A stretch of DNA of 64,000 nucleotides, taken from the NCBI GenBank assembly GCA_947462875.1, contig CANHQJ010000001.1, positions 62,001 through 126,000 on the forward strand, in the 5' to 3' direction. The DNA is from Verrucomicrobiia bacterium. GTDB taxonomy: Bacteria; Verrucomicrobiota; Verrucomicrobiia; Verrucomicrobiales; Akkermansiaceae. The notes under the pieces were generated by a model that worked only from the letters and a program-made list of their open reading frames with translations, did no database searches and was not told the origin of the DNA. The translations under genes were made by a program, and so were the position numbers. Below are positions 42,824 to 61,263 of this stretch, piece after piece (the first letter of the stretch is position 1; each line of letters opens with the position of its first letter).

Positions 42824-43951
42824 ATGCTCCATTTACCACGATTGTCCCAGGCTGCGTTTTTCTTTTGCTTGTCGCAGATTTGTTGTGGCGATCCGGCAGT
42901 TGAGTCGCGGGTGCTGGGCTCGGATTCATGTGCGACGAGCGGGTGTCACGGCGGGGCGGGACTGAATCGGGGGGCTGCCAGCATTTGGAAGCGGTCGGAT
43001 CCGCATTTCCATGCGGCGGCCACCTTGACGAATGGGCAATCGACCGCCATGGCGCAGAAAATGGGCATCGAGAGCGCGCCGGATTCGGTGAGTTGCACGG
43101 CGTGCCATGCGCCGATGAAAAATGTGCAGCCGGCTTTGTTGATGCCGTCGTTTGATGCCAAGGCAGCCGATAAGGATTTTTCCTGCGCGAATTGCCACGG
43201 TGGGGCGGAACAGTGGATCCTTTCCCATACCCGTCCGGAATACCCTCGCGCGGCGCTGGAAAAGCTGGGCATGCGGCCGCTGGGCACGGCTTATCAGCGG
43301 GCGAATGCCTGTGTCGCCTGTCATCAGAACTTGAGCGATGAGTTGGTGAAGGCGAATCATCCGCCGCTGATTTTTGAGCTGGATGGACTGCTGCTTGAGC
43401 AACCGAAGCATTGGCGGGAGGATGCGGATTTTTCCCATGCGAAAACCTGGCTGGTGGGGCAGGCGGTGGCGTTGCGTGAAACGGCGGCGCAGGCACAGAA
43501 GCAACCGGGTGAGGCGCGGGTGGCGGAGATTGAGGCGATTCAGGAAGTGCTGCTCGCGTCCGAGACGGGTTGGGAGCGGAAAAGTCCCGCTGATCTGGTA
43601 AAAGCGGCGGACGACTTTGCGAAAAAAATCTCGTCGGCACCGATGAGCGCGGCTCAGACACGCGCGGCGCTCGGCAAACTGATGCTTTATCGCAAGCCTT
43701 TCGAGCTCAGTGCCTTTGCCAACGTGGCGGCGGAGCAGCGGATGCGGGCGGTGGGGCATTATGCTGAACGTGTGGCACTGGCGATCGATCGGCTGAATCA
43801 GTCGCTTATCGCCGCGGGCGAAAAGGCGGCATTTGCCGAGGAGTCGCTCGACGAGCTGTTCAAAGCCGCGCCACCACCGAAAAGTTTTGATGCGGATGTT
43901 GCGGAAAATTTTGTGAGGAAACTCGATGCGCTGTCTGTCGATCGCAAGTGA
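42824..43951 (+). CDS. Exported tetraheme cytochrome c
   Basis: Protein of 375 residues with signal peptide [21 protein letters not shown]. Four covalent haem sites are visible: an unusual CX4CH (CATSGCH, Cys36) and three CXXCH (CTACH Cys91, CANCH Cys121, CVACH Cys163). The first 180 residues hold all haems; the rest is alpha-helical ([16 protein letters not shown]), resembling multiheme cytochromes of the c-554 kind seen in planctomycetes and verrucomicrobia. ATG at 42824 gives the clean signal peptide; GTG at 42797 is an alternative. First gene of a four-gene operon, it is probably the periplasmic electron carrier that feeds the conduit. Confidence 0.85.
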
Positions 43952-43974
43952 AATGAGAGCAGGGAATTGATCTG

Positions 43975-46434
43975 ATGTTGAATCAACGGTCCAGAATGAG
44001 AGAGCGACTCGCCATTTGTTGTGCGAGTGCTCTTCTTGTGACCTGTTACCACCCGCCGCACCGCAGGACGCCGGAGTGGGATCTTGCGCCCGACGAAGAG
44101 CGGCCGGATCGTCTGACGGAACACCAAATCCCCGCAGAGGCGATGCCGCAAGATCCGCGTTCTTTTTCGCCGGATGCGGGCGTGGAGATTCTGCCCACGC
44201 CGCTGCCGCCGGAGGTGAAGGTTCGTGAAAATAGAATCATTTCCAAGGAGCCGCCGCTGCCGCCCGCGCGGTTCAACCCCGATCCCGGGATGGGCGACGT
44301 GTCGGGACAGGAGGGCAGCTTGTTGCCCGCGATCGAGCCGGAGAAACCGCAGGGCTTCGGGCGATTTTTCCGCGACGGTCTCGGTCCTGACAACCAGCGC
44401 TTTTTCGAGCGCGATGCGGGCGTGGCTCAGGCGCCGTTTCCGAAATTCACTGCCGATATCCCGAAAAATTTGTTTCTGCCACGAGAGGGGGTGGCGCGTC
44501 GCGAAATCGTGATCGAGCCTGTCGAGCGGGTCGAGGATTTGTATGAACCGGAAATCCCCGGCGCGTTGCTGGTGCCGCGCAAGGGCGTGCGCTACGAGGA
44601 ACGCATTTACGAGCACTGGCATGCCGGGCATCGCGAGCATGTCGAGTATCCGGATCACACCGAGCCTGTCGATAACCGCTACCTCATCCCGACAGGTCGG
44701 TGGAATAGGTATGAGGATCCCGATCTGGCAGAAACTCCGTATGAGGAAAAAACGCCGTATCTGTGGCATCCGTACTACCAGAGCAAATTGAAAGGGGACA
44801 TCCCGATCATCGGCCAGGAATACTTCGCCTCGCTGACTTTCCAGAATATCACGGACATTGAGTTTCGCGAGCTGCCCGTGCCATCAGGCGCGAGCGCGGC
44901 ACGACCGAACAGTTCGGAGTTTTACGGCGATGGCAGGCAGGAGGTGATCGTCACGAACACCAGCTTTACGCTCGATATCTTTCGCGGGGAAACGTCGTTC
45001 AAGCCGGTGGAGTGGTTGTTTCGCATTCAGCCGGTGTTCAATACCAACTACATTTCGGGATACGAAACGGGTGTCGTTTCGCCGGATCCGCGCGGACTCG
45101 GTGCGAACACGAGTCCTTCGCCGGGCTTCAACTTCGGAACCAACCCCGGCGGCGTGAATCCGGGGGACATCGACTTTTTCCTGGATCCCTTGCTTCGCCC
45201 TGCCGACTCGAATTTTTACAACACCCGCGCGACCGAACGCTTCGAGAATCAACTCGCGCTGCAGCAGTTTTTCTTCGAGACGCACTTGTTCGATCTTTCC
45301 GATAACTACGATTTCGCCGCCGTGCGCGTCGGCACGCAGGTGTTCAATGCAGACTTTCGCGGTCATGTGTTTTCCGATGCGAACTGGGGCTATCGCCTTT
45401 TCGGCAACTACCTGAAAAATCGGCTGCAATACAACATCGCGCTCTTCGATCTCTTCGAGAAGGAATCCTTTTCCGAGCTCAATACCTGGGATGACCGCAA
45501 TCAGAATGTCTTCGTGGCGAATCTCTATTACCAGGATTTTCTCTTCGAAGGCTACAACGCGCAGTTGGCCTTTCTCGCGAATTGGGACAGCGGCAGTGAC
45601 AGCGGATTGGTATATGATAGCGCGGGAAACATTGTCAGACCCTCGCCGATCGGCAGCATCACACCGCACGATGTGCATGCCTACTACATCGGCTTCAGCG
45701 GCGAGGGGCACATCGGCCGTCTGAATCTCAGTCATTCGCTCTATCATGCGTTTGGGGAAGATGAACTCAATGGCGTGGCCGGTCGTTCGGTGACGATCAG
45801 CGCCTGGATGGCGGCGCTGGAACTATCGGTGGATACCGACTGGATGCGTCACAAGATATCGTTTTTCTATGGCTCGGGCGATGACAATGCCACCGACGGC
45901 ACGGCCACGGGGTGGGATGCGATCGTGGACAATCCGAACTTCATCGGTGGTCCGTTCAGTTACTGGAATCGGCAGGGCATGAATCTTGGTGGCACCGCTG
46001 TTTCTCTCAAACAGCGGCTGAGTCTGATCCCCGACCTGAGTTCTAACAAATTTCTCGGTCAGTCGAATTTCGTCAACCCCGGCATCTTCATCGCAGGGAT
46101 CGGCGAGGAGTGGACGCTCACACCGAAGGTGAAATTTCTGGCCAATCTGAACTACCTGATGTTCATGAATACCGACTCGATCAAAACGGCGCTGGTCACG
46201 GAAAACATCGACCGTGAGATCGGCTGGGACCTGAGTTTCGGCATGGAATACCGACCTCTGCTCACGGATAACATTCGCCTCTCCGCTGGCATCGGGTTAC
46301 TTTTTCCCGGCCAGGGCTACAAAGATATCTATCGCACTTCTTCACCCGGCGTGCCCGGTTTCACACCGGTCTCCGCCAGGGACACTCCGGGCATGCTCAC
46401 CAGCGGATTCATCGGCGCAACTCTCACTTTCTGA
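43975..46434 (+). CDS. Lipoprotein with proline-rich N-terminus and outer-membrane beta-barrel
   Basis: Protein of 819 residues, 23 bp after the tetraheme gene. The N-terminus has a lipobox-like ALLVTC followed by about 250 residues of Pro/Glu/Arg-rich sequence (ILPTPLPPEVKVREN, FLPREGVARREIV). From about residue 320 alternating strands with aromatic ends suggest a beta-barrel (FFFETHLFDLSDNYDFAAVR, SYWNRQGMNLGG-like turns), and the chain ends in Phe (GATLTF), the usual outer-membrane barrel signal. Position between two multiheme cytochromes fits the porin of a porin-cytochrome conduit. No haem motif is present. An in-frame ATG at 43996 is an alternative start. Confidence 0.75.
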   Translation: MLNQRSRMRERLAICCASALLVTCYHPPHRRTPEWDLAPDEERPDRLTEHQIPAEAMPQDPRSFSPDAGVEILPTPLPPEVKVRENRIISKEPPLPPARFNPDPGMGDVSGQEGSLLPAIEPEKPQGFGRFFRDGLGPDNQRFFERDAGVAQAPFPKFTADIPKNLFLPREGVARREIVIEPVERVEDLYEPEIPGALLVPRKGVRYEERIYEHWHAGHREHVEYPDHTEPVDNRYLIPTGRWNRYEDPDLAETPYEEKTPYLWHPYYQSKLKGDIPIIGQEYFASLTFQNITDIEFRELPVPSGASAARPNSSEFYGDGRQEVIVTNTSFTLDIFRGETSFKPVEWLFRIQPVFNTNYISGYETGVVSPDPRGLGANTSPSPGFNFGTNPGGVNPGDIDFFLDPLLRPADSNFYNTRATERFENQLALQQFFFETHLFDLSDNYDFAAVRVGTQVFNADFRGHVFSDANWGYRLFGNYLKNRLQYNIALFDLFEKESFSELNTWDDRNQNVFVANLYYQDFLFEGYNAQLAFLANWDSGSDSGLVYDSAGNIVRPSPIGSITPHDVHAYYIGFSGEGHIGRLNLSHSLYHAFGEDELNGVAGRSVTISAWMAALELSVDTDWMRHKISFFYGSGDDNATDGTATGWDAIVDNPNFIGGPFSYWNRQGMNLGGTAVSLKQRLSLIPDLSSNKFLGQSNFVNPGIFIAGIGEEWTLTPKVKFLANLNYLMFMNTDSIKTALVTENIDREIGWDLSFGMEYRPLLTDNIRLSAGIGLLFPGQGYKDIYRTSSPGVPGFTPVSARDTPGMLTSGFIGATLTF

Positions 46435-46436
46435 TC

Positions 46437-49400
46437 ATGTTTTTTTCTTATCATCATCGGTATCTCGTCGCGGCACTTGCTGCTTGCCTGGCGCTTGGGA
46501 ACGCGGGCGCCCAGGAGTCTTCGGAGGCTGTGATGAAGTGGCTTTTCGGGCCGCAGACGGCAGCGCCTGCCGAGCGGAAACCGGACGTCGCGATTCCGAA
46601 GCCGAATGTGGTCGATCAATCGCTCGCCACCATGCAGGCGAAAAGCCGCGGCTGCGTGGAGTGCCACGAAAAGGCTCACGATCCTCATGGCAGCCCGAAC
46701 GTGCGTCTCGGTTGCACCGACTGCCACGGCGGCAATCCCACCGTCGGTCTCACCATGCGGCAAGCTCACCCGGCCCCGCGCAATCCTGTGTTTTTCGAAA
46801 GCTCTGCCAACCCGAGTGACAGCACGGTATTGCTGAATCACGAGTCGCCCGAGTTCATCAAGTTCGTCAACCCCGGCGACCTCCGCGTCGCGAAGGAAAC
46901 GTGCGGCACGTGTCACGCGCAGTCGGTCGATCACGTCAATCACAGCATGATGCGCCACGGTGCGATGCTCTGGGGCGCGGCCGCTTACAACAACGGTGCC
47001 TACCCCGCGAAGGATTCGATTTTTGGCCAGGCCTACGGCGCCAATGGCACGCCTCTCGCTCTGCAAAGCCCCGTGAAAGTCACTCCGGAAATGCAGAAGC
47101 ACATGGGCATCGTGCAAAATATCTACCCGCTGCCACGCTTCAATATCACCCAGCCGGGCAACATTTTCCGCATCTTCGAAAAAGGCGGCACGCGTCTCGC
47201 GGAGATCGGCAACCCCGATCCTTTCGATCCTCCGGGCAAACCGTTGCGTCGTCTCGGAGAACGCGGACTCGGCACTTTTTCGCGTGTCGATCCCGTGATT
47301 ATCGGCGCGCACAAAACCCGTCTTCATGATCCGTTGTTGGATTTTTTCGGTTCGAACGACAGACCCGGCGACTACCGCTCCAGCGGTTGCACTGCCTGCC
47401 ACGTGGTCTATGCGAACGACCGTTCGCCCTCGAACTCCGGTTGGTACAGCGCCTACGGCAATCAGGGCCTTTCGTTCAATCCGGATCCGATGATTTCCAA
47501 AAAGGAAAAAGGTCACCCCATCGCGCACAAGTTCACCCGCAGCATCCCTTCCAGCCAGTGCATGACCTGCCACATGCACCAGGGCAATCTTTTTGTGAAT
47601 CCGTATCTCGGCTACATTTGGTGGGACCAGGAATCCGATGCCGAGCACATGTATCCCAAGCAGCAAAAGTATCCGACCGATGAGGAAATGGCGCAGTCGC
47701 TGCGTCGCAATCCCGAGGCCGCCGCCGCACGCGGACTGTGGGGCAATGTCGATTTCCTCGAAAAATCCGCCGAACTCAATCCGAAGCTGAAGGACACGCA
47801 GTTTGCCGATTACCACGGCCACGGCTGGATGTTCCGCGCGGTGTTCAAAAAGGATCGCGAGGGCAATCTTCTCACGCTCAAGGGCGACAAGATCGATCAC
47901 AGCGACAAAGATAAATTCCGCAAGGCCGTGCACCTGAAGGATGTCCACCTGGCGCTTGGCATGCAGTGCGTCGATTGCCATTTCCTCAACGATACCCACG
48001 GCAATGGCTTGCTCCACGTCGAACCCCGCGCGGCTACGGCGATCATGTGCATCGATTGCCACGGCACTGTCAGCGCGCGCACCAATCTTCTCACCTCCGG
48101 CAAAGGCGGCACGCTCTCGAAAGACGGCACCGTGAAACCCATCGACCTGCGCGAAAGCAACACGCCCTTCGGCCCGCGCTTTACCTGGAGTGCCGATGGC
48201 AAACGACTCTATCAACAATCGTCCATGGACCCTAACCGGAAATGGGAAGTGCCGCAGACGATGGACACGGTTGATCCCCAATCGGATCACTACAACATCA
48301 TGAGCGCCTATGCGAAGACCCTGAAGCGCGATGGCAAGACATGGGGTGGCGTGCCGAACGATCCGAAATCCTGCGCGAAACAACTCGCCCATAGCGATGC
48401 AAACATGGATTGCCAGACCTGCCACACCTCCTGGGCGACGAGTTGTTTCGGCTGCCACATTCCGATGGAGGCGAACTACAAAATGGCGGCGAACAAATTC
48501 GAAGGAACGACATCGCGCAACTTCAGTTCCTACAATCCGCAGGTCGTGCGCGACGACGTTTTCATGCTTGGCAAGGACAGCACCGCGAAAGGCAATCGTT
48601 TGTCCGTGATCCGTTCCTCGAGCGCGATGGTCGTCGGCTCCCAAGGCGCGAACCGCGAGTGGTTCTACACCCAGCAGCAAACGGTATCCGCCGAAGGCTA
48701 TTCCGGTCAGGCCTTCAATCCGCACTTCGCTCACACCACCAGCGGCGTGGGCACCACGAAAAATTGCACCGACTGCCACCTTTCCGAGGACAAGGACAAC
48801 AACGCCATCATGACCCAGCTCCTCGGCTTCGGCACGGGCACGGTGAACTTTTTCGGACGGTTTGCTTACGTCGGCACGGAAGATCATGGTCTCAACGCCG
48901 TGGTCTGGACCGAGCGCACGGAGCCGCAGGCCGCCATCGGCAGTCACCTCCATAAATACGCGTATCCCGATTTTTACGAGCAACACCAGAAGCATCAGCA
49001 GAACCTGCAAACCGCCCATCACCACTCGGCCAAGGGTGGCGGAGTGCTCGATCTTCAATTGCGCGGCGAATACCTCTACGCGGCACTCGGGAAAAATGGA
49101 TTCGGCGTGTTCGATGTCGCTGATGTGGACAACAAGAATTTTTCCGAGCGCATCGTGACTTCGCCGACATCCGCTCTGGGTCAAAAAACCTTCATCAAAT
49201 CCTATTGCGCGACTTCTATCACCCTGCCCAGCACGCTTATCAATGATCCGAAACGCAAGCGACTGCCGGAAAACGAAGAGCAGCCCATCGCCAGTTATCA
49301 TGGCTACGCTTTTGTCACCGACCTGCGCGAGGGTCTTATCGTCGCCGATGTCGCCATGCTGCTCGATGGCAACCCGGCGAACAATTTCATCCGCAAGGCC

Positions 49401-50315
49401 GCCTCGTTCAATCCCGAGGGCATTCTCGATGGCGCAAAACATGCCTGGATGGCGGGGCAATGGCTCTACATCACCACCAGCCGCGGTCTCGCTGTGGTGG
49501 ATGTGAAAAATCCCGAGGCCCCCGTGTTGGCAGGCAGTTATGGTGGTTCGTTCCTGAAGGAGACGCGCCAAGTCACGATCCAGTGGCAGTATTGCTTTGT
49601 CACCGATGCGGAGGGTCTGAAGGTGTTCGATGTTTCCCATCCCGCCAATCCACAACCCATCAGCGGCGGCGCTGTTCTGTTAGGAAATGCGAACGGCCTC
49701 TACGCCGCCCGCACCTATCTTTACGTCGCCAACGGGACGCAGGGTCTCGCGATCATTGACATCAAAAATCCCGGCAAACCGCGCAAGCTTTCCGACTTCA
49801 CCGCAGGCGGAAAGATCAACGACGCCCGCGATGTGCAAATCGGTTCCGTGAACGCCTCGATGTATGCCCACATCGCCGATGGCAAAAACGGCCTGCGCAT
49901 CGTGCAAATGATTTCGCCCGAGAACGTGCCGGGCCACATGGGCTTCTCGCCGAACCCCGAACCCAAACTCATTGCCACCTATCCTACCAAAGGCCCTGCC
50001 GTCAGTGTCTCGCGCGGCCTCGATCGCGACCGTGTGGTGGACGAGAGCGGCAATCAAACGGTGGTCTTCGGTCGTCGTGGATCACGTCCGTTCCACCTCG
50101 ATGAAATGGAGGCGTTTTTCAAAAAACCGACTGGAGAAACCTACCGTGTCGCCGATGTGAAGAAGACCGATGACGGCACCCTTACCAACCTCCACGGCAA
50201 GCCTTACGAACCTAACGAAAAATTTGCCGTTCCCGCCTCCGCCGGCGAGGAAGAACCCTTCTCCAACACCGGTCGTTTGAGAAAACGCAGAGCCCCGAAA
50301 GAAGTCGGACGATGA
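46437..50315 (+). CDS. Decaheme cytochrome c fused to a LVIVD beta-propeller
   Basis: Exported protein of 1292 residues, signal peptide ending near GNAGAQ. Ten CXXCH haem motifs are visible, at Cys73, 93, 156, 318, 375, 511, 538, 659, 670 and 777. From about residue 860 to 1160 come LVIVD-type propeller blades with the repeating form GLxVxDVxxPxxP (GFGVFDVADVD, GLAVVDVKNPEAPVLAG, GLKVFDVSHPANPQPIS, GLAIIDIKNPGKPRKLS). No lipobox is seen. The gene starts 2 bp after the barrel gene and overlaps the NHL gene by 4 bp. It is probably the outer-face or barrel-embedded electron-transfer subunit; the propeller may bind a partner or matrix. Confidence 0.9.
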   Translation: MFFSYHHRYLVAALAACLALGNAGAQESSEAVMKWLFGPQTAAPAERKPDVAIPKPNVVDQSLATMQAKSRGCVECHEKAHDPHGSPNVRLGCTDCHGGNPTVGLTMRQAHPAPRNPVFFESSANPSDSTVLLNHESPEFIKFVNPGDLRVAKETCGTCHAQSVDHVNHSMMRHGAMLWGAAAYNNGAYPAKDSIFGQAYGANGTPLALQSPVKVTPEMQKHMGIVQNIYPLPRFNITQPGNIFRIFEKGGTRLAEIGNPDPFDPPGKPLRRLGERGLGTFSRVDPVIIGAHKTRLHDPLLDFFGSNDRPGDYRSSGCTACHVVYANDRSPSNSGWYSAYGNQGLSFNPDPMISKKEKGHPIAHKFTRSIPSSQCMTCHMHQGNLFVNPYLGYIWWDQESDAEHMYPKQQKYPTDEEMAQSLRRNPEAAAARGLWGNVDFLEKSAELNPKLKDTQFADYHGHGWMFRAVFKKDREGNLLTLKGDKIDHSDKDKFRKAVHLKDVHLALGMQCVDCHFLNDTHGNGLLHVEPRAATAIMCIDCHGTVSARTNLLTSGKGGTLSKDGTVKPIDLRESNTPFGPRFTWSADGKRLYQQSSMDPNRKWEVPQTMDTVDPQSDHYNIMSAYAKTLKRDGKTWGGVPNDPKSCAKQLAHSDANMDCQTCHTSWATSCFGCHIPMEANYKMAANKFEGTTSRNFSSYNPQVVRDDVFMLGKDSTAKGNRLSVIRSSSAMVVGSQGANREWFYTQQQTVSAEGYSGQAFNPHFAHTTSGVGTTKNCTDCHLSEDKDNNAIMTQLLGFGTGTVNFFGRFAYVGTEDHGLNAVVWTERTEPQAAIGSHLHKYAYPDFYEQHQKHQQNLQTAHHHSAKGGGVLDLQLRGEYLYAALGKNGFGVFDVADVDNKNFSERIVTSPTSALGQKTFIKSYCATSITLPSTLINDPKRKRLPENEEQPIASYHGYAFVTDLREGLIVADVAMLLDGNPANNFIRKAASFNPEGILDGAKHAWMAGQWLYITTSRGLAVVDVKNPEAPVLAGSYGGSFLKETRQVTIQWQYCFVTDAEGLKVFDVSHPANPQPISGGAVLLGNANGLYAARTYLYVANGTQGLAIIDIKNPGKPRKLSDFTAGGKINDARDVQIGSVNASMYAHIADGKNGLRIVQMISPENVPGHMGFSPNPEPKLIATYPTKGPAVSVSRGLDRDRVVDESGNQTVVFGRRGSRPFHLDEMEAFFKKPTGETYRVADVKKTDDGTLTNLHGKPYEPNEKFAVPASAGEEEPFSNTGRLRKRRAPKEVGR

Positions 50316-51598
50316 AAGCCTACGCATTAGTAACCATCGCACTACTTGCTGCCCATTCCTTTTGCGGAGCGGAAGCCATCGCACCCGTCTCCGGCTTTCA
50401 AGATGAAGCCGGACATCTGGATGCCACCGGCACCGCCGCACGTTTCAGCGATCCCACAGGCCTGGCCCGCGATTCGCAGGGCAATCTCTACGTGTGCGAT
50501 GCGCGCAATCACGTCATCCGTAAAATCGCTCCCGGTGGCATTGTTACCACCATCGCCGGCCAAGCGGGCGTTTCCGGTGCCGTCAATGGCACTGGCTCCG
50601 CCGCGCGATTCTGTTTCCCCTCTGACATCGCCGTTGCGCCGAATGGCACGCTCTACGTCGCGGATACCGGAAACCACTGCATTCGCAGGATCACCACCGC
50701 TGGCGTCGTTTCCACGCTCGCCGGTGATCTCGGCAGTGCCGATGACATTGATGTTTCCTATGGTTCCACTTATACGACGGTCGCCGCCGATCTCGATGGC
50801 ACAGGTGCAAATGCGCGTTTCAATAGCCCTAGTGGCATTACCCTTGCTGACAATTTTCTCTACGTCAGTGACACCGGCAATCAACTCATCCGCAAAATCA
50901 CCCTTGCTGGCGCAGTGACCACCGTCGCGGGCAAGGCGGGCGAGTGGGGGACAACCGATGGCGCAGGCACCAATGCCCGTTTTTCCGCTCCGATGGGACT
51001 CTGTATCGGTGCCGATGGCAACCTCTACATCGCGGATTCCATGAACCACACCATCCGCTGCATGACGCCGCAATTCGCGGTCTCCACCTATGCCGGAAAT
51101 GCGCTCGAAGCCGCTTGCAAACCAGGCCCGCGCCTCAGCGCGCGTTTTTCCGAACCCACCGACATCACACCGCATCCGGGCGGGGGATTCATCATTTGCG
51201 ACTCATTCGGCAACGCGATGTTCCGTCTTACAGCAGAGGGAAATGTTTCCATTCTCAGCCAACACGAAGATTCCTCGCCCAACGCTCTCGCCCATCCGAA
51301 CTCCGCCGTCTGTGATGCATACGGTAATGTCTATGTGTCCGATACCTTCCACCAGCAAGTGCGGCTCATCATCGAAAAATTCGACATCACCATCCAAAAA
51401 GCCAACGGCTCGAATCAACTCACGATTACTTGGGACAGCATCATCGGCCGTAGTTATCAACTCCAGCAGCTCACCAACCAAACCTGGGGCAACACGAACA
51501 TCGCTCCCATCACAGCCACCCAAGCCCAAACTTCCGTGAGCTTCCCGATGCCCCAACAGAAATCCGGCATCTATCGCATCATGCTGCTGGGTTTCTGA
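50312..51598 (+). CDS. Exported NHL-repeat beta-propeller protein
   Basis: Exported protein of 428 residues, signal peptide MKAYALVTIALLAAHSFCGA. NHL repeats recur as SDPTGLARDSQGNLYVCDAR, FPSDIAVAPNGTLYVADTGN, NSPSGITLADNFLYVSDTGN and SAPMGLCIGADGNLYIADS, each followed by HxIRxI or QLIRKI. The C-terminal ~70 residues (TITWDSIIGRSYQLQQLTN) look like a small beta-sandwich seen at the end of many verrucomicrobial secreted proteins. The ATG overlaps the decaheme stop (ATGA), making it the fourth gene of the operon. Likely a protein- or ligand-binding partner of the cytochrome. Confidence 0.85.
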   Translation: MKAYALVTIALLAAHSFCGAEAIAPVSGFQDEAGHLDATGTAARFSDPTGLARDSQGNLYVCDARNHVIRKIAPGGIVTTIAGQAGVSGAVNGTGSAARFCFPSDIAVAPNGTLYVADTGNHCIRRITTAGVVSTLAGDLGSADDIDVSYGSTYTTVAADLDGTGANARFNSPSGITLADNFLYVSDTGNQLIRKITLAGAVTTVAGKAGEWGTTDGAGTNARFSAPMGLCIGADGNLYIADSMNHTIRCMTPQFAVSTYAGNALEAACKPGPRLSARFSEPTDITPHPGGGFIICDSFGNAMFRLTAEGNVSILSQHEDSSPNALAHPNSAVCDAYGNVYVSDTFHQQVRLIIEKFDITIQKANGSNQLTITWDSIIGRSYQLQQLTNQTWGNTNIAPITATQAQTSVSFPMPQQKSGIYRIMLLGF

Positions 51599-51709: not shown

Positions 51710-53368
51710 TCAAAAACTCGAAGAAGCGCGCGGGAATTTCGCATACGGCAAGCGTGCGTTCTGATACGCGAAGTTGTCGGCCTTAGCCGTCGGCGGGGCG
51801 AGGAAATCACGCGCGCCACTGGCACCGACAATATCGTCTTGTTCGATGCCATCTCCTGAAACGCCGATTGCGCCAATGAGCACGCCATTTCGATAGAGCG
51901 GGAAGCCGCCGGGGAAAATCGTGATGCCGTTCGGCACGTTCGGGTTGATTGGCGTCGCGGGAATTTCTCCGCTGACCAGCGAGAGAAGTCCCTGAAAACC
52001 GAAGAAGGGTCCCGGAGCTGTGTCCTTGATGCCCGGTGGATACGAATCCTGGGAAAGAAATCCGACACTGCGCGAGGAAAAAGCCCGCGGCGCTCCGCGT
52101 TCGAGTCCGCGCGAAAAAAACAATGCCGTGCGTGCTTTTTGCACCGCCACATCCCAACTGAACATCGTCGCCTCCGGCGTGCGGTAGGTGCCTAAGACAG
52201 CGGGTTCCACGCCATCGATGGCGGGATTGTTCACCACCGAAATCCACACGCGGGCGATCTGCCCGCGCGGCAATCGGATGCCCGCGCGCGTGATCATCGC
52301 CCGTTCCGCCGCGAGCCGCAGAATGTTTTGCACCTCGGCGGCACTGAGTCGCGCGGCACCGCTGATCGTGCCCGGCAGAGGATCGGCGCGGATCGCGGAG
52401 CGCAACTCTCCAGGCACACCACCGGGGCCGGTGAAACCAAAGGGATTCGGATAGACGACCGAGGGAGGGGATGCTTTCGGCGAATAATCCACCGCGCCAT
52501 CGTCCGCGGAACCCGCCACACCGTCGATGTCCGCAAACGTGACCGCACTGCCATTCGCTGCGAGAAACGCGGCCGGGTTCGCCACGATATTGTTCGACCC
52601 TGAACCCACCACATAGGCGAGTCGCACGCCATCGATCGCGACGTTGTTGCCGCCCAGAGCGGTGGCAGGTCGGTAGCCCGCCTGCGCTGCCAGCGCGATG
52701 CGCTCATTAATGTTGGAGAGGAAAAAAATGTCAAAATCGGCCACCGGCGTATCCGCAAAACCCATCACGCCCACGCCGCCGACGAGGATGCCATTTTTGA
52801 ACAGCGGCACACCACCCGGACTGGACGTGGCGGCGGGGAGAGTGAGCAGCGAAGTGAATGGCACGCTGCGGAACGTATCGGCTGGCGTCGCGCTGGCCAG
52901 GTCATTGATGCCCGGGATCGGCGGGGTAGGGAAGGCGCCCAGCGGGGAAGGCGCTTTGTATTTGTTCGTGTCCGAAAACGCCATGTTCGAAAAATTCACT
53001 CCGATCAACGGACCGTTCGGACGATTTTCCACAGCCGGCGGAAAATGATTTTGCACGATGAATGCCGCCGTGCGCGAGGTGAATGCGTGTTGATTGCTGC
53101 TCAGATACGCCGCAGTACCCGCCTTGGAAATCGCATCGGCAACCAATGATGGTGTCGGGTTCGGAGAAGCCGCGCCATTCACATCCCACACCGCCAGCAC
53201 ATAGCCCTCACGGTCGGTGATCGCGATGACCCGGTTTGCACCTAACGAAAGATTCTGCGCCTCCTGCACTCCCTGCGCCAGCACTTGCTGCACATCCGCC
53301 AGCTCCATCCGCTGGGCAAGCAGCGGTGAAACGGAAGCAAGCAGGAGTAAGGAAATTCGCCAACTCAT
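51710..53368 (-). CDS. Exported two-domain HbpS/GlcG-type haem-binding protein
   Basis: Exported protein of 552 residues, signal peptide MSWRISLLLLASVSPLLA. Two halves each look like the HbpS/GlcG (DUF336) domain: MELADVQQVLAQGVQEAQNL with ANRVIAITDREGYVLAVW and GGVPLFKNGILVGGVGVMGF in the first, and LSAAEVQNILRLAAERAMIT, IARVWISVVNNPAI and GFPLYRNGVLIGAIGVSGDG in the second. Family members bind or degrade haem, or act as sensors. The start at 53368 gives a clean signal peptide. Its place between two cytochrome-related operons suggests a role in haem handling, which is inference. Confidence 0.78.
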   Translation of the reverse strand: MSWRISLLLLASVSPLLAQRMELADVQQVLAQGVQEAQNLSLGANRVIAITDREGYVLAVWDVNGAASPNPTPSLVADAISKAGTAAYLSSNQHAFTSRTAAFIVQNHFPPAVENRPNGPLIGVNFSNMAFSDTNKYKAPSPLGAFPTPPIPGINDLASATPADTFRSVPFTSLLTLPAATSSPGGVPLFKNGILVGGVGVMGFADTPVADFDIFFLSNINERIALAAQAGYRPATALGGNNVAIDGVRLAYVVGSGSNNIVANPAAFLAANGSAVTFADIDGVAGSADDGAVDYSPKASPPSVVYPNPFGFTGPGGVPGELRSAIRADPLPGTISGAARLSAAEVQNILRLAAERAMITRAGIRLPRGQIARVWISVVNNPAIDGVEPAVLGTYRTPEATMFSWDVAVQKARTALFFSRGLERGAPRAFSSRSVGFLSQDSYPPGIKDTAPGPFFGFQGLLSLVSGEIPATPINPNVPNGITIFPGGFPLYRNGVLIGAIGVSGDGIEQDDIVGASGARDFLAPPTAKADNFAYQNARLPYAKFPRASSSF

Positions 53369-53503
53369 CACTGATGGTTTTTTACGCAAATGGCGGCGGG
53401 ATGACAAGGGAATACGACGTCGCGAGAGCGTTTTGGAGCGCGGAATTCATTTTGGTGATCTTCGCTTGCTCTTGTGGGTTGGCTGTGGCTTTATGATGAC
53501 GCT

Positions 53504-54532
53504 ATGAGTCAAACTTCTCTCTATTTGCTGCTGCCCTGTCTGTTCTTCGTTGGCTGCAAGGAACCAGTGCGGACGTATCGGGTGGCGGAGGAGCCGGAGG
53601 CTGCGCCGCAGGTGCAGAGCGAGGTGCCGCGTGAAGCGGAGAAGAGCGATGCGTTGGTGACGTGGAATGCTTCGTCGGACTGGACGGAGGAAAAGGCGGG
53701 GCAATTCCTGACGGCTGCCTATGCGATTCCTGACTTGGGCCGTCTCACGGTCTCACAACTGGGCGGCGATGGCGGCGGCTTGGCGGCGAATGTGAACCGC
53801 TGGCGCGGGCAGGTGAATCTGGCGCCATTGACGGAAGAAAAGATCATCGGGCAGCCGATGCCGGTGCCGGGCAGCAAGCAACCGATGTTGTTGTTCAATC
53901 TCACGTCCGATACCGCCGCAGCGGATGCCGATGGGATCTTTGCCGCGGTGCTGCCGCTCGAGTCGGAGACCTGGTATTTCAAACTCACCGCACCCTCGGC
54001 GAAGCTGCGCGAGAAGGGAGCGGCGGTGTTCACGCAATTTCTCGGCACGGTAAAAGTCGGTGGTGAAGAAGCGGCACCCAGTCCGCCGCCTGCACCCAGA
54101 ATGCCGAACATCAAGGTGGTCGCACCGGAAGGTTGGGAAGAAGGGGCACCAAGCTCGATGCGTGTCGCGAGTTTTGCAATCAAGGGTGCGGATGGTGCCA
54201 CGGCGGATGTTTCGGTGATTCCCTTGCCCGGCCATTCCGGCAGCGTGCTCGATAACGTGAATCGCTGGCGCGGCCAGATCCAGCTTCCGCCGCTGAGCTC
54301 CGCAGACGATCCGGCTCTCGGCAAGGAGATGGACGGGAAAGCGGGCAAGCTCATCGTCACGCACATGGTCAGCGAGAGTGCGGTTCTCGATGGCAAAAAG
54401 GCCGCGATTTCCGCCGCGATTCTGAAGGCGAATGGTATCACGTGGTTTTTCAAAATGACGGGTGAAGCGGCGTTGGTGACGGCGCAGCGCGAAGCTTTCG
54501 AAGAATTTGTGAGATCGGCCACTTTCCCTTGA
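53504..54532 (+). CDS. Lipoprotein with an internally duplicated domain, upstream of resB
   Basis: Lipoprotein of 342 residues with a lipobox (FFVGC) after MSQTSLYLLLPCL. Two copies of one domain follow: each contains NVNRWRGQ followed by L(A/P)PL, at about residues 88-98 and 240-250, and each ends with a strand WYFKLT or WFFKMT and a helix. The domain is not recognised by name. ATG at 53504 was chosen for the lipobox. A TATGAT hexamer at 53492-53497 lies so close to the ATG that a leaderless transcript is possible. The stop overlaps the resB start, so it is the first gene of the cytochrome maturation operon. Confidence 0.65.
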   Translation: MSQTSLYLLLPCLFFVGCKEPVRTYRVAEEPEAAPQVQSEVPREAEKSDALVTWNASSDWTEEKAGQFLTAAYAIPDLGRLTVSQLGGDGGGLAANVNRWRGQVNLAPLTEEKIIGQPMPVPGSKQPMLLFNLTSDTAAADADGIFAAVLPLESETWYFKLTAPSAKLREKGAAVFTQFLGTVKVGGEEAAPSPPPAPRMPNIKVVAPEGWEEGAPSSMRVASFAIKGADGATADVSVIPLPGHSGSVLDNVNRWRGQIQLPPLSSADDPALGKEMDGKAGKLIVTHMVSESAVLDGKKAAISAAILKANGITWFFKMTGEAALVTAQREAFEEFVRSATFP

Positions 54533-55692
54533 TGATTCGCACCGTCGGAAAATTTCTCAGCTCGCTTCGTCTAACGGTTTTTTTGTTGGGCTACTCGATG
54601 GTGTTGATTTTTATCGCCACCGTGTCGCAAGTGCATCTCGGCATCCATGAAGTGGTGGAGCAATTTTTCCGTTCGTGGATCGCGTGGTGGGATGTGGGGC
54701 CGGGGGATCTCGTGTTTTCGATTCCGTTGCCGGGCGGTATGATGCTGGGCTCTTTATTGATCGTGAATCTGTTAGCCGCCCATGGTGCGCGGTTTCGATG
54801 GAACAAGGGCAAGGCGGGGATGATGCTGATTCACTCGGGTATCTTGCTGATGCTTATCAGTGAAATCGCCACGGGCCTGCTGGGGAAAGAGGCGCAAATG
54901 ACGGTGAACGAGGGCCAGATCATGAACTACTCGACGTTTCCGCGTGAGGTGGAGTTGGTGGTGATCGAGTCCGCAGGCGATGGGATGGACACCGTTCACG
55001 CGATCCCCCAAAGCCGACTCAAGGATGGTGCGGAATTTCCTTTCCCCGGATTCATGTTGCGGATCGATAAGCATTTTGAAAATGCGGACATTGTCGCGGA
55101 GGAAGAGGCAGGCGCGGATGCGGACCCGATGCGCGCCACGGACGGATCGGCGGTCGGTCTCGCCGTGCGCCGAAAGCCGCGAGAAACGGCGATGGATCGT
55201 CGCGATCTCGCAACTGGCTTTGTGAGCATCATGCCGGATGGCGGTGAGGCGTTGCGCCGATTGCTTCTCTCGAATGCGATGCCCGGCACGCAGGCCTTTA
55301 CCGTGGCGGGTAAAAGCTGGAAAGTCGCGATACGCCAGGCGCGCCTGTATCATCCGTTTTCCATCAAACTGCTCGACTTCAGTCACGACCGCTACCTCGG
55401 CACGAACGTTCCGAAAAATTTCTCCAGCAAGATTCGTTTGTTGAATCCCGAATCGGGGGAAGATCGCGAGGACCTCATCTACATGAATCATCCGTTGCGC
55501 TATCAGGGGTTCACGTTTTATCAGGCGGGTTTCGCAAACAACGATACGACCACCATTTTTCAGGTGGTGAAAAACCCTGCGTGGACGCTGCCCTACATTT
55601 CCTGCGCGATGGTCTCCGCAGGATTGTTATGGGTGTTTTCCTCCCATCTCCGCAAGGCGATCTCCCGCCGCAAACCGAACGCCGTGCCATGA
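54532..55692 (+). CDS. resB: ResB-like cytochrome c biogenesis protein
   Basis: Inner-membrane component of the System II cytochrome c maturation machinery, 386 residues. N-terminal helices (LRLTVFLLGYSMVLIFIATV, LLIVNLLAAHG, GMMLIHSGILLMLIS), a periplasmic domain of about 200 residues, and a last helix near residue 355 (WTLPYISCAMVSAGLLWVF) match ResB; the conserved NHPLRYQGFTFYQAGF motif is present. The ATG shares one base with the stop of the lipoprotein gene, and the stop overlaps the ccsA start. Together with CcsA it exports haem and ligates it to CXXCH motifs. Confidence 0.88.
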   Translation: MIRTVGKFLSSLRLTVFLLGYSMVLIFIATVSQVHLGIHEVVEQFFRSWIAWWDVGPGDLVFSIPLPGGMMLGSLLIVNLLAAHGARFRWNKGKAGMMLIHSGILLMLISEIATGLLGKEAQMTVNEGQIMNYSTFPREVELVVIESAGDGMDTVHAIPQSRLKDGAEFPFPGFMLRIDKHFENADIVAEEEAGADADPMRATDGSAVGLAVRRKPRETAMDRRDLATGFVSIMPDGGEALRRLLLSNAMPGTQAFTVAGKSWKVAIRQARLYHPFSIKLLDFSHDRYLGTNVPKNFSSKIRLLNPESGEDREDLIYMNHPLRYQGFTFYQAGFANNDTTTIFQVVKNPAWTLPYISCAMVSAGLLWVFSSHLRKAISRRKPNAVP

Positions 55693-57524
55693 ACTCCAAG
55701 ATTCAGACATCTTTCGCATGGGCGCTTCCCGCTCTCTGTTTGCTCTATCTCGCGCTGCATGCGTTTCGTGTGACGCGTGCGGTGGATGGATTTGATTTTC
55801 AGAATTTCGGCACATTGCCCGTGGTGTCGAACGGTCGTGTGCAGCCGCTCGATTCGCTGGCGCGCAATCACTTGCTGGCGATTCATGCGAAACAATCGGT
55901 GCCCGGCGATGACGCCCCCGCCACGCCCTCCGCATGGCTGGTGGAGCTCGCTTTCAAGCCGGCTGTGGCGGACACACGGAAAATTTTTCTCATCCATCAC
56001 GATGACATCCTCGGCCTCACGGGGCTGACTCGTGGCAGTGAAAAAAGTTTTTCTTTTGATCAACTCCAGCCCGCCTTTCCGGCACTGCAACGCGAGGCGG
56101 CGAGGATCGAACCCATCGATGCGCAGGCGCGCAGCGCGTACGAGAAAGCGCTGATCCGATTGACGCGCAATCTTTTTGCCTACAACCAACTCAAGCACGC
56201 CCTCGCGTTACCGCGAAAGGAAAACATGGAAGCGGAGTTCGGGCTCTTCTTGGAAAAAGTCACTGCCGCGCTCGCTGCTGCGGACAACAAGGATGTGCCA
56301 CTCGATCAGGCATTGAAAGTGGACGCCTCCGCGCGCATGCGTGAGATGCTGGACTGGGCTCCCTACACTCAGGTGTTCACTTCTCCCACGGGCAAGAATC
56401 AGGATGACTGGCGCATCCTTCCCGATTCCGTGATCGACTCTGCGGAAACCGGAAAACTCCATCCCGCCGCGCTCGCCTACGCCCGGCACGGCGATGCCTA
56501 TCGAGCGGGCGATGTCGCTGCTTTCAACAAGGCCGTGGCAGAGTATCGGACATGGCTTTCCGCGAATCGCCCGAAAGAGCTACGCAAAAGCTCGGCGGAA
56601 ACGTTGTTCAATCGACTGGCGCCGTTTTATCAATCGATGGCGCTTTACGTTGTGGTGTTTCTTTGCGCGGCATTCTCCTGGCTGCGACCGGGATCGGTGT
56701 TGCGCAGTTCTGCCTTTCGGATCTTGCTGCTTGGTTTTGCCGTGCATACCGCCGGCCTCATCACGCGGATGGTGCTGGAAGGTAGGCCACCGGTGACAAA
56801 TCTTTATTCTTCCGCCGTGTTCATCGGCTGGGGGGTGATCGTGCTGAGTATTCTGTTAGAAATGTATCATCGCAATGCCATCGGCACGGCGGTCGCCGCA
56901 GTGATCGGTTTCGGCACCTTGCTCATCGCGCACCATCTTTCACTCTCGGGCGACACGCTGGAAATGATGCGTGCCGTGCTGGATACCAATTTCTGGCTCG
57001 CCACGCATGTGGTCATCATCACGCTGGGGTATTCCTCGTGCTTCCTCGCGGGATTCCTGGCGATTGCGTGGATCCTGTGGCGTGCCTGCGGTGGCACATC
57101 GCCGACCGTCTCGAACTCGTTGCGCGGCATGGTGTATGGCGTCATTTGTTTCGCGACGCTCGCGAGCTTCGTCGGCACCGTGCTGGGGGGAATCTGGGCG
57201 GATCAGTCGTGGGGTCGGTTCTGGGGCTGGGATCCGAAGGAAAACGGCGCTCTCCTGATCGTGATCTGGAACGCGATCATCCTTCACGCGCGCTGGGGCG
57301 GCCTGGTCAAGGAGCGCGGGATGATGGTGATGACGGTGTTTGGAAACGTTGTCACTTCCTGGTCGTGGTTCGGCACGAACATGCTCGGCATCGGCCTGCA
57401 CTCGTATGGTTTTACGGATGCCGCATTTCTCTGGTTGAGCGGCTTCATCGCCACGCAACTGGCCATCATCATGCTCGCGTGGTATCGACCCAAGCAGCAT
57501 CAATCATTCGTCAGGGAACGATAA
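55689..57524 (+). CDS. ccsA: CcsA/ResC-type haem exporter and ligase subunit
   Basis: Multi-helix inner-membrane protein of 611 residues. The tryptophan-rich haem motif is WGRFWGWDPKENGAL (about residues 515-530), with conserved histidines in LIAHHLSLSG, WLATHVVIITLGYSS and GIGLHSYGF. An N-terminal extension of about 300 residues (one helix, then FGTLPVVSNGRVQPLDSLAR) distinguishes it from short CcsA and is seen in larger variants. ATG at 55689 overlaps the resB stop by 4 bp. With ResB it should mature the many c-type haems encoded close by. Confidence 0.92.
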   Translation: MNSKIQTSFAWALPALCLLYLALHAFRVTRAVDGFDFQNFGTLPVVSNGRVQPLDSLARNHLLAIHAKQSVPGDDAPATPSAWLVELAFKPAVADTRKIFLIHHDDILGLTGLTRGSEKSFSFDQLQPAFPALQREAARIEPIDAQARSAYEKALIRLTRNLFAYNQLKHALALPRKENMEAEFGLFLEKVTAALAAADNKDVPLDQALKVDASARMREMLDWAPYTQVFTSPTGKNQDDWRILPDSVIDSAETGKLHPAALAYARHGDAYRAGDVAAFNKAVAEYRTWLSANRPKELRKSSAETLFNRLAPFYQSMALYVVVFLCAAFSWLRPGSVLRSSAFRILLLGFAVHTAGLITRMVLEGRPPVTNLYSSAVFIGWGVIVLSILLEMYHRNAIGTAVAAVIGFGTLLIAHHLSLSGDTLEMMRAVLDTNFWLATHVVIITLGYSSCFLAGFLAIAWILWRACGGTSPTVSNSLRGMVYGVICFATLASFVGTVLGGIWADQSWGRFWGWDPKENGALLIVIWNAIILHARWGGLVKERGMMVMTVFGNVVTSWSWFGTNMLGIGLHSYGFTDAAFLWLSGFIATQLAIIMLAWYRPKQHQSFVRER

Positions 57525-58331: not shown

Positions 58332-59273
58332 TTAGAAAGAGTAGTTGATGCCGATTCCAAGACCGGCTTGCAGGGCCTCAAAGTCATTGAATCCTAAAAT
58401 CGTATTGGAGTCATGATGCGTGTAAGTGATGTTAGTAAAAACTGTGAGATTTTCCGTGGGTTGCCACAAGAGTTCGCAGCCGACGAGGTGATTCCAGTCC
58501 TCGCGATAGGTGTTGCGGAAATTCCAGTAAGAGCCGTTCCAAAACAGAGAAAGACTGGTTTTATCCGTGAGTAGATAGGAGTATTTCAAATCCGCCGTGT
58601 AGAAATCGCGTTCGCGGCGATCTACCTCGGCGGTGATGTCAAATGCGGCATCGATCCCCGCTGAGAGCTGGTAGCGTGGTGCGAGTAGTAACGTCTTGCG
58701 AAAGCCTGTGCGGATGCGGCTGGCGGAATAGTTGCTCTCCGAGATTTGGTCCGAGGTCAGGCGTTGGTATTCATAGCGTATGAAAAATTGCAGATCGTCG
58801 AGATCGGGAAATGACTTAACAAGTCCGAGACGGGCCTCGAAATTTTCGAAATCCGATGGGTTGTTGCCTTCGTAGCGGAAGACCGACTGGCTCAGGCCGG
58901 CATCGACATACCAGCCTTGAGTCAGCAAGGGCATCCAGCTCACGTCGGCCTGACCCGACCAGAGCCATCCGGAATCCGAGGTTCTTGGGTCAAAGTCCGG
59001 TGCGTTATCGGTGTAGTTGATACTGTTGAGAAAATGAAACTGTACGGGTGGCAACCCATCGTAGCTGCTGAGGATTTGCTGTACGCCGAGATCCGAGTCA
59101 GCAGGTGAGAAAGGGGCATACTGGGGAGCCATCTGTGACGTGTCATTTTTGAAGACGGAAGGATCATAGTCCGGCCGTGAAAAGCTGAGATAAGGACTGA
59201 AGTTGGATAGTATGTCCGCATGGAGTCCCAATAGAGAGAAAATCCACAGGCTCAAACATATTGTGCTTTTCAT
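58332..59273 (-). CDS. Outer-membrane beta-barrel protein
   Basis: Exported protein of 313 residues, signal peptide MKSTICLSLWIFSLLGLHA. The mature chain shows many alternating strands with aromatic girdles (QFFIRYEYQRLT, DLKYSYLLTDKTSLSLFWNG, NLTVFTNITYTHHDS) and ends in Phe (GLGIGINYSF), as outer-membrane barrels do. ATG at 59273 opens the signal peptide; further upstream the frame is only the complement of the cyclase gene. It is first in a two-gene operon with the FecR-domain gene and divergent from the cyclase across 37 bp. The ligand is unknown. Confidence 0.75.
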   Translation of the reverse strand: MKSTICLSLWIFSLLGLHADILSNFSPYLSFSRPDYDPSVFKNDTSQMAPQYAPFSPADSDLGVQQILSSYDGLPPVQFHFLNSINYTDNAPDFDPRTSDSGWLWSGQADVSWMPLLTQGWYVDAGLSQSVFRYEGNNPSDFENFEARLGLVKSFPDLDDLQFFIRYEYQRLTSDQISESNYSASRIRTGFRKTLLLAPRYQLSAGIDAAFDITAEVDRRERDFYTADLKYSYLLTDKTSLSLFWNGSYWNFRNTYREDWNHLVGCELLWQPTENLTVFTNITYTHHDSNTILGFNDFEALQAGLGIGINYSF

Positions 59274-59310
59274 GATTGAAGAAAGTAGATGGAATCCATT
59301 GATCATAGCA

Positions 59311-61263
59311 ATGAAAAAATTCGGCATCCTAAAAAATTGGCGCAAAGGCATGGCGTGCTTCGTTGGCGTGGTGATCGTGTTGTTGGCCTGTGGAGTGTTT
59401 CCTTTCCGTCCGGCCATCGATGGGATGGATCGGAAGCTCGGGGATTTCATCATCCGCGTCACGGGAGGTCCGCCGGAGAAGAAGGAATTGGTGCTATTAG
59501 GCATCGATGAACCAAGTATGTCTCTGGATGCGTTAGATCCGGACGAAGTGGACGCCAACCCTACGTTGAAGAGAATGAGTGAGGGGTTTCCCTGGGATCG
59601 CAGGGTATGGGCGGATGCGATTGATCGCTTGATGGGTGCGGGAGTGAAAGTTTTGGTTTTTGACCTGATTTTTACCAATGAGACGAATCTGGAAGCCGAT
59701 GCCGCATTGGCGGATGCGGTGCAAAAATATCCGGGACGCATTGTACTAGTGTCTGTGTTCAGTGATGCCGGCCAAGCAGGGGAGGGAAATCAATACAACC
59801 TGGTGGAACCCATTGATGTGTTCTATGATGGCGATACCGAACCTCGTGTGGGGTTTTGCAATTTTAATGTCGATGCAACCGACGGCTTGATGCGCAGTGC
59901 CCGCTATACCACCACGAAGAACATCATGAATGAAGGCTTTCGACGTGCGGGTGAGCCGGAGTATTTATCGCTCGCCGCACAAGTGATCGCGGCCATGGGT
60001 CACACTCCGCCCGAGGGTGACAAGGAATTGCGCTTTAGCGGCCGTACCGAGACGGGGCCGCTGGACGTTTACAAACCCACCAGTATTTATAAAATTTTTT
60101 CCGAGAAGGAGTGGAAAAATAATTATCAGAACGGAGAGTTTTTTCGCGATAAAATTGTCATGATTGGTCCGGTGGCGCCACGATTCCAGGATATGCACCT
60201 GACCTCCATGGGGATGATCACCGGTCCGCAAATGCACATGCAGGCGATTGCCTGTGGGCTGGATGGAGCATTCATTCATCGCGTGGGCAATCCCATCCCG
60301 ATCATGTCGCTGATGGGACTCCTCGCTTTGCTATGGTCGATGCTTATCACACGCCCCATGATTTCCGTCTTCGGCGTTTTATTGATGATCGCGGGTGTGT
60401 TGCTGCTCACGGTTCAGCTTGGCGCGAGTCGATCCATTTTACTCCCGATATCCGGCGGGCTGCTGACATTGATGGTCGGCTGGGCGGTGGCGCAGTCGTA
60501 TGAAATCGTGACCGAGCGGCTGGCGAAGAGTCGTCTGCGCAAGGACTTCCGGCGTTTTGTTTCCCGCGATGTGGCGGATGCGATGATCGATGCGGAGGAT
60601 GACTGGAAAGTGACAGCATCCGGTGTGAAGCGCCGGGTTGTGGTGCTGTTCTCCGATGTGCGAGGCTTCACCGAGCGCTCCGAGCAAACGGATCCCGGTG
60701 ACCTAGTGAAACAACTCAACGAGTATCTTACGGCCATGGTCGAGGTGATTTTCCGTCACGGCGGGACGCTCGATAAATTCATCGGCGATGCCGTGATGGC
60801 GCATTGGGGAGCTCTGGGAATGGGCGATGAACAGGACAATGCTCGTCGAGCGATTCTCGCGGGCAAGGAAATGATCACGGTGCTGGAATCGATGAACGCC
60901 CGATGGAAAGCGGCGGGGAAATCGCCGTTCAAGATCGGCGTCGGCCTACATTTGGGTGAGGCGATTGCCGGTGAAATCGGATCTCCCGACCGCACGGAAT
61001 TCGGCGTCATCGGCGATACCGTGAATCTGGCGTCGCGCTTGGAAGGTCTGACGAAAGAATTCCACTGCGAGGTGATTTATTCCGAAGAAGTAAAAAGTGC
61101 TGCCGGTCTGGACGAAGGCGCGATCGACCTAGGTCGCGTCCGAGTGAAGGGCCGCAGGAATCCTGTCAGGCTTTTCGGCATCGGCGATGAAGCGGAGGTG
61201 AAAGAACGTCTCAAGTCCTTCGAACGGGATGAAGAGGATTGTATCGTGATGACGGTGAAGTGA
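59311..61263 (+). CDS. CHASE2-domain class III adenylate/guanylate cyclase
   Basis: Transmembrane sensor of 650 residues. After one membrane helix (GMACFVGVVIVLLACGVF) a CHASE2 sensor domain occupies about residues 35-330 in the periplasm (ELVLLGIDEPSMSLDAL, VLVFDLIFTNETN), then helices near residues 330-400, then a class III cyclase domain (about 440-600): VVLFSDVRGFTERSE with the first metal Asp, LDKFIGDAVMAHWG with the second, and FGVIGDTVNLASRLEG with the transition-state Asn/Arg region. Lys in LDKF and Glu before FGV favour ATP over GTP. ATG at 59311 gives a normal short N-terminus. Its divergent neighbours encode a FecR-domain protein and a barrel. Confidence 0.9.
   Translation: MKKFGILKNWRKGMACFVGVVIVLLACGVFPFRPAIDGMDRKLGDFIIRVTGGPPEKKELVLLGIDEPSMSLDALDPDEVDANPTLKRMSEGFPWDRRVWADAIDRLMGAGVKVLVFDLIFTNETNLEADAALADAVQKYPGRIVLVSVFSDAGQAGEGNQYNLVEPIDVFYDGDTEPRVGFCNFNVDATDGLMRSARYTTTKNIMNEGFRRAGEPEYLSLAAQVIAAMGHTPPEGDKELRFSGRTETGPLDVYKPTSIYKIFSEKEWKNNYQNGEFFRDKIVMIGPVAPRFQDMHLTSMGMITGPQMHMQAIACGLDGAFIHRVGNPIPIMSLMGLLALLWSMLITRPMISVFGVLLMIAGVLLLTVQLGASRSILLPISGGLLTLMVGWAVAQSYEIVTERLAKSRLRKDFRRFVSRDVADAMIDAEDDWKVTASGVKRRVVVLFSDVRGFTERSEQTDPGDLVKQLNEYLTAMVEVIFRHGGTLDKFIGDAVMAHWGALGMGDEQDNARRAILAGKEMITVLESMNARWKAAGKSPFKIGVGLHLGEAIAGEIGSPDRTEFGVIGDTVNLASRLEGLTKEFHCEVIYSEEVKSAAGLDEGAIDLGRVRVKGRRNPVRLFGIGDEAEVKERLKSFERDEEDCIVMTVK

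Follow-up and report, generated by a model that had tools for sequence, protein, structure and literature searches.

A predicted barrel-cytochrome gene cluster in a Verrucomicrobiia bacterium as the possible outer half of an NAD(P)H-driven electron conduit

Do four adjacent genes in a bacterium of the Akkermansiaceae encode part of a route by which electrons leave the cell? The genes lie at positions 42824 to 51598 of a 64,000-nucleotide stretch of DNA, hereafter the window, from a Verrucomicrobiia bacterium (GenBank assembly GCA_947462875.1, contig CANHQJ010000001.1, positions 62,001 to 126,000). An earlier note, made from the letters of the window, had read them as an outer-membrane conduit analogous to MtrCAB and to the Geobacter porin-cytochrome complexes (PCCs), with another domain make-up. 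We find this reading right in kind and too narrow in extent, as the system includes more than four genes. The four genes are probably the outer half of an NAD(P)H-driven conduit that crosses the whole envelope and exports electrons, a reading to which we assign a probability of roughly 0.6. At the level of sequence, its parts, their conservation, their pairing and their co-occurrence are evident. Good support for the conduit reading comes from the barrel prediction, a near-invariant pairing of the barrel with a decahaem cytochrome, conserved His residues that are candidate haem ligands, and a co-occurring transmembrane module that links NAD(P)H to a second decahaem cytochrome.

The genome of the window organism measures 3.95 Mb and is 97.7% complete, the window lies within one contig, and our genome-wide statements come from searches of this genome. 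It has one copy each of the barrel gene and of the gene for the decahaem-propeller protein. A phage origin was rejected, as phage records gave no match.

The predicted barrel and its cytochromes

The four genes run in one direction with gaps of 23 bp and 2 bp and a 4-bp overlap, in exact agreement with the earlier note. The first (42824..43951, + strand; its open frame begins earlier, with a GTG at 42797) encodes a tetrahaem c-type cytochrome with a signal peptide, similar to cytochrome c554/c7 (PF13435, PF14522). Three of its haem sites are CXXCH and one is CX4CH, which is retained in all 30 relatives. With the ten CXXCH of the third gene product, this confirms the 4 + 10 haem sites counted previously.

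The second gene (43975..46434, +) encodes the protein with a terminal Phe in which a barrel had been suspected, and structure prediction of this protein alone bears that out. In the AlphaFold model, built with 50 relatives, 18 long strands occupy residues 283-818, mostly with pLDDT >90, and the N-terminal 270 residues are of low confidence. We therefore describe the product as a predicted 18-strand outer-membrane beta-barrel (residues ~273-819) with a long N-terminal extension. Its best structural match in the Protein Data Bank (PDB) is the alginate exporter AlgE (Z 27.7, rmsd 2.7 Å over 358 residues), itself an 18-stranded barrel, followed by OprD-type Occ channels and chitoporin. No Pfam family matched the protein at E 0.01. 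The C-terminal residue is F or Y in all 82 barrel relatives and the residue two places earlier is mostly hydrophobic, which at sequence level is the usual signal of outer-membrane barrels. The same relatives spoke against the lipoprotein that had been proposed here: the putative lipobox, LVTC, is non-canonical, its Cys is not conserved, and a canonical lipobox occurs in just 6 of the 82 barrels. We thus rejected a lipoprotein barrel as a family feature.

The third gene (46437..50315, +) encodes a fusion of a decahaem c-type cytochrome (residues ~70-785) and an LVIVD propeller (~807-1197), with a Sec signal and no lipobox. Ten CXXCH motifs were observed where ~0.02 would be expected from composition, and ten haem sites are present in 37 of 37 aligned relatives. 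An apparent loss of one haem in relatives from Acidobacteriota and Planctomycetota was rejected, since site 3 is CX3CH in many of them. Outside the motifs, ten His are invariant and three nearly so among the 37 sequences, a pattern that fits electron-transfer haems with bis-histidine ligation. Both propellers proposed in the earlier note were recovered by Pfam: LVIVD in this protein (PF08309, 7e-24) and NHL in the product of the fourth gene (PF01436, 2e-34). The LVIVD propeller is also confidently predicted as a structure (model residues 767-1156, corresponding to protein residues 807-1196), with matches to YVTN and phosphogluconolactonase-type folds at Z ~30. No OmcA/MtrC family match is listed for the protein. 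PDB sequence searches with it and with the barrel protein gave nothing useful; among the VIA-align/Foldseek matches no MtrB or multihaem structure is listed, which is not evidence of absence.

The fourth gene (50312..51598, +) overlaps the third by 4 bp and encodes an exported NHL-repeat propeller. It is the least constant of the four, present in 18 of the 83 listed loci, almost all of them from Verrucomicrobiota.

We then followed the decahaem-propeller gene across other genomes. In a scan of contigs, in which the best 80 loci were considered and phyla were named by the submitters' labels, it was found in bacteria from soil and fresh water that represent at least eight phyla (Verrucomicrobiota, Acidobacteriota, Planctomycetota, Pseudomonadota, Binatota, Rokuibacteriota, Chlorobiota/Ignavibacteriota and Myxococcota). 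The tree of the protein broadly matches these phyla, and among the matches listed its closest relatives are from Akkermansiaceae metagenome-assembled genomes (MAGs). Within Verrucomicrobiota it is scattered, occurring in 11 of 388 genomes, and it is absent from two other searched genomes of the window organism's genus. Where at least 1 kb of upstream sequence was available (73 listed loci), the barrel gene lay directly upstream on the same strand in 69, usually within 20 bp. Megaplasmids of Sphingobium carry a full-length homologue of the decahaem-propeller protein (46% identity, 93% coverage); the genes there encode, in turn, a five-haem cytochrome related to the tetrahaem one, an HbpS-like protein, the barrel and the decahaem-propeller protein.

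An inner-membrane module that accompanies the outer genes

The earlier note overlooked a second decahaem cytochrome of the same system, encoded on the minus strand at 62642..64000 and running past the right end of the window to 64324. This c3-type cytochrome has a Cys-rich N-terminal domain, probably cytosolic, and a single predicted transmembrane (TM) helix; in it, as in the decahaem-propeller protein, conserved non-motif His equal the haems in number. Beyond the window it is followed by genes for a dihaem-b membrane protein, a protein with cyclic-nucleotide-binding (cNMP) and 4Fe-4S parts, and an NAD(P)H flavoprotein (G000:C1:126321-130163). In relatives the outer genes have as neighbours the decahaem c3, a membrane protein similar to b561, a 4Fe-4S protein that binds cyclic nucleotides and an FNR-type flavoprotein for NAD(P)H. 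The two halves are contiguous and divergent in a close relative (L054) and ~12 kb apart in the window genome. The flavoprotein has NAD(P)H and FAD domains. The dihaem-b inner-membrane protein (IMP) conserves W110/H114/H128, S152-G153-G156 and W283/H287/H301 across 44 sequences, the Ser being replaced in four, including that of the window genome (T). The Fe-S protein encoded directly upstream of it in the window genome matches PF13247 at 4.7e-10.

The two halves also occur together. All 22 genomes with the decahaem-propeller gene (11 Verrucomicrobiota, 11 Pseudomonadota) have inner-module genes too, sometimes unlinked. Each of the 11 Verrucomicrobiota genomes has homologues of the c3 and the tetrahaem cytochrome and a cNMP/4Fe-4S match; in three of them (G013, G167, G258) the halves are on separate contigs. 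Among 398 Pseudomonadota genomes, 29 have the dihaem-b protein; the 11 that have the decahaem-propeller all belong to these 29 (P = 4e-14, uncorrected for relatedness), and in three of the 11 the halves are far apart or on different contigs. The output was therefore not found without the input, whereas the input does occur alone.

Taken together, these parts suggest a path. Electrons would pass from cytosolic NAD(P)H to the FNR-type flavoprotein (FAD, 2Fe-2S), from there to the cyclic-nucleotide-binding 4Fe-4S protein, and across the inner membrane through the dihaem-b protein, whose architecture resembles the membrane portion of an NADPH oxidase or a ferric reductase, to the membrane-anchored decahaem c3. 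The tetrahaem cytochrome would act as a periplasmic shuttle from the c3 towards the decahaem-propeller protein, which would sit on or within the 18-strand barrel and may be exposed at the surface. The final acceptor would be extracellular or large, e.g. humic quinones or Fe(III)/Mn(IV), and the propellers may keep the complex assembled or provide a binding site for the acceptor. We favour outward flow because the flavoprotein and the dihaem-b protein together look like an NADPH oxidase or ferric reductase in split form, enzymes that move electrons outward, and because the c3 is predicted to span the membrane. Haem-copper oxidases are present in 11 of the 11 Verrucomicrobiota hosts, so electron export need not be their only respiration.

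Variants of the inner module were seen elsewhere. In L170 (6850-10203) a single 1118-aa protein unites the pyridine-nucleotide oxidoreductase, cNMP-binding, 4Fe-4S and dihaem-b parts. The N-terminus of the c3 is a cytosolic FHA-like domain in Alphaproteobacteria (L002 20850-22649, L121 3959-5665), as opposed to the Cys-rich form in Verrucomicrobiota. Among 87 iron oxidisers, 27 are listed with a 10-haem 'Forkhead-associated protein' that was not connected to a conduit (PMC10734462).

Elsewhere in the window genome, close-set CXXCH pairs were found at one locus, presumably alternative complex III, and in one frame containing a stop.

Known conduits and the direction of electron flow

An outer-membrane barrel encoded beside multihaem cytochromes agrees with the broad definition of a porin-cytochrome system, and the cluster appears to be a new form of such a conduit. 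The closest known inner module is that of PCC4. He et al. (2017, PMC5566968) reported two WX3HX13H and one SGXXG, the latter on TM4 in PCC4, from the inner-membrane proteins of PCC3 and PCC4, and compared these proteins to ferric reductase and NAD(P)H oxidase. PCC4 combines three periplasmic cytochromes of 4, 5 and 10 haems with a porin, its subgroup II has a PF13247 Fe-S protein upstream of the IMP, and its reported hosts are Alpha-, Gamma- and Zetaproteobacteria and Planctomycetes, with no Verrucomicrobiota among them (PMC5566968). Our cluster resembles it motif for motif in the inner module, as well as in having tetrahaem and decahaem cytochromes and a flavoprotein. It differs in its haem numbers (4, 10 and 10, with no separate pentahaem protein) and in having the AlgE-like barrel, the decahaem-LVIVD protein, HbpS and often NHL. 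Three loci (L160, L165 and L171) fit the published description of PCC4, with 4, 5 and 10 haems; our inner-module profiles match the first two in whole and the third in part, our barrel profile does not match their putative porins, and none of the three has a decahaem-propeller. Since loci that are PCC4-like by description share the inner module and lack our barrel and decahaem-propeller, the cluster likely joins a PCC4-type input to a different output.

The output may have been met before. A survey of ghost-rock karst (June 2026, PMC13264449) contains an unnamed 'group 1' of 11 PCCs, in which a large decahaem cytochrome (4-5 kb gene) lies beside a porin of ~20 strands, with ferredoxin-NADP reductase nearby in 7 of 11. 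Matched by description, group 1 is very probably the same family, although the accessible part of the survey describes neither the propeller nor the inner module. Acidobacteriota and Gammaproteobacteria account for 21 of its 36 PCC hosts, among which Verrucomicrobiota are not mentioned.

MtrCAB, PioAB and MtoAB likewise pair a barrel with a decahaem cytochrome for a proposed electron flow across the outer membrane. Unlike theirs, the barrel here is predicted to be 18-stranded and AlgE-like, not MtrB-like, and has no Pfam match; the input is an NAD(P)H-linked dihaem-b protein rather than CymA as in MtrCAB. The MtrA-type (DmsE-family) model TIGR03508 is not listed for the decahaem-propeller protein, and a c3 relative reached 24 bits against a cut-off of 192. 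By haem counts, the Geobacter OmbB-OmaB-OmcB complex differs, as OmaB is an octahaem and OmcB a dodecahaem protein. A PCC described from freshwater Verrucomicrobia (He et al. mSphere 2017, PMC5615132), in which a porin accompanies a periplasmic cytochrome with eight haem sites, shares the phylum and the idea, but no octahaem protein is found here. Identity with it was rejected because strain IMCC26134 has both systems at separate loci; its L141 8423-13271 encodes a hexahaem NapC-like protein, a ~octahaem cytochrome and a 763-aa putative porin, in line with the published octahaem PCC. Uet of Tenderiales (PMC10734462) also brings together a tetrahaem cytochrome, a barrel and NHL proteins, but by its description differs in the undecahaem UetJ, three trihaem cytochromes (UetDEG) and a peptidylprolyl isomerase.

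Several points weigh against an outward conduit. Eighteen strands are narrow for sheathing a haem chain, and the nearest folds are polysaccharide and substrate channels; the predicted barrel may either sheathe the haems or only dock the cytochrome. The haem-binding part of the decahaem-propeller protein was modelled with modest confidence, and a canonical surface anchor was looked for and not found in it (a canonical lipobox pattern occurs in 7 of 93 family matches). We found no experimental study of any family member in the literature searched, nor any report on LVIVD with multihaem proteins, or on Sphingobium with multihaem cytochromes and extracellular electrons; the one LVIVD-repeat/cytochrome paper found concerns Methanosarcina. 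Finally, He et al. drew PCC4 as an inward route from an extracellular donor (PMC5566968).

Following that drawing, the conduit could carry electrons inward, from a donor outside the cell such as Fe(II) or Mn(II), through the dihaem-b protein to the quinone pool or respiratory chain. PCC4, with the common inner module, is found in marine Fe(II)-oxidising Zetaproteobacteria and in bacteria of drinking-water filters (PMC5566968), and the oxidases of the Verrucomicrobiota hosts would suit such a role. We nevertheless consider inward flow unlikely. The NAD(P)H flavoprotein and the NADPH oxidase-like split suit the opposite direction, and at neutral pH the reduction of NAD(P)+ with electrons from Fe(II) requires an input of energy. 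Heterotrophs such as Sphingobium are among the hosts, and in the 2026 survey carbon fixation was found in only 3 of 36 PCC-bearing MAGs (PMC13264449).

In another, improbable reading, a soluble compound enters through the barrel, which acts as a substrate channel, and is reduced or oxidised in the periplasm by the decahaem-propeller protein, so that no electrons cross the outer membrane. The AlgE, OprD-type and chitoporin folds and the missing canonical anchor are consistent with this, and haem enzymes can have propellers, as a NirN-like structural match illustrates. However, at least ten invariant non-motif His for ten haems suggest that all haems are six-coordinate, with no obvious catalytic haem, and a nearly invariable pairing of one barrel with one cytochrome would be unusual for a simple porin.

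An equally doubtful proposal, which overlaps with the outward conduit in sharing its route and differing in purpose, is that the electrons feed surface enzymes or reductive iron acquisition (e.g. priming oxidative polymer degraders) rather than respiration: oxidases in the hosts, an HbpS-like protein of a haem/iron-binding family at many loci and the frequent degradation of polysaccharides by Verrucomicrobiota (PMC5615132) agree with it, but the neighbourhoods showed no conspicuous conserved gene for polymer degradation or iron uptake.

Neighbouring genes and implications

Convergent with the four genes lies a gene for an exported double HbpS/GlcG-like protein (51710..53368, -; PF03928), 33-35% identical to its Sphingobium homologue, whose gene is placed between the tetrahaem-type and barrel genes. 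HbpS-like genes occur in 49 of the 83 listed loci, and the protein may handle haem or iron. Next comes a putative lipoprotein gene (53474..54532, +), linked to the system by association only and kept in the nearest relatives, 5' of a cytochrome-maturation pair: a ResB-like cytochrome c maturation protein of System II (54529..55692, +; PF05140) and a CcsA-like cytochrome c assembly protein (55581..57524, +; PF01578). Equivalent neighbourhoods are present in L018, L054 and L056.

Between the two halves of the proposed conduit (57511-61263), a FecR-domain protein, a BBP2-like barrel and a CHASE2-nucleotide cyclase are grouped. The last, a CHASE2 sensor with a class III nucleotide cyclase (59203..61263, +), is the sole PF00211 gene found in the 3.95-Mb assembly. 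Speculatively, it may make the ligand of the cNMP-binding subunit. Nucleotide cyclases lie near the cluster in the window genome, G013 and G167 and are absent from family f5. A cNMP-binding domain, with the lone detected class III cyclase between the halves in the window genome, makes gating by cyclic nucleotides a lead. We advance only tentatively the more specific proposal of a cyclic-nucleotide-gated, NAD(P)H-driven exporter that uses an AlgE-like barrel, resides mostly in aerobic soil and freshwater hosts of at least eight phyla, and does not serve classical metal respiration.

Farther away, the window encodes a large alpha-2-macroglobulin-like protein (1988 aa, PF00207 + PF17973; 3424-9390). 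In Sphingobium, the region 5' of the cluster (L002 1-9650) encodes a CHASE2 protein and a two-partner-secretion pair, made up of a 2092-aa protein and an FhaC-type transporter.

The function is directly testable, since there are cultured hosts: Sphingobium strains, with the genes on megaplasmids, and IMCC26134. If the proposed conduit is real, phyla abundant in soil and lakes (Acidobacteriota, Verrucomicrobiota, Planctomycetota and some Pseudomonadota) would possess a complete electron route from NAD(P)H to the outside, and most such phyla are not known for extracellular electron transfer. It would also mean that conduits swap their inner-membrane input and outer-membrane output modules as units.

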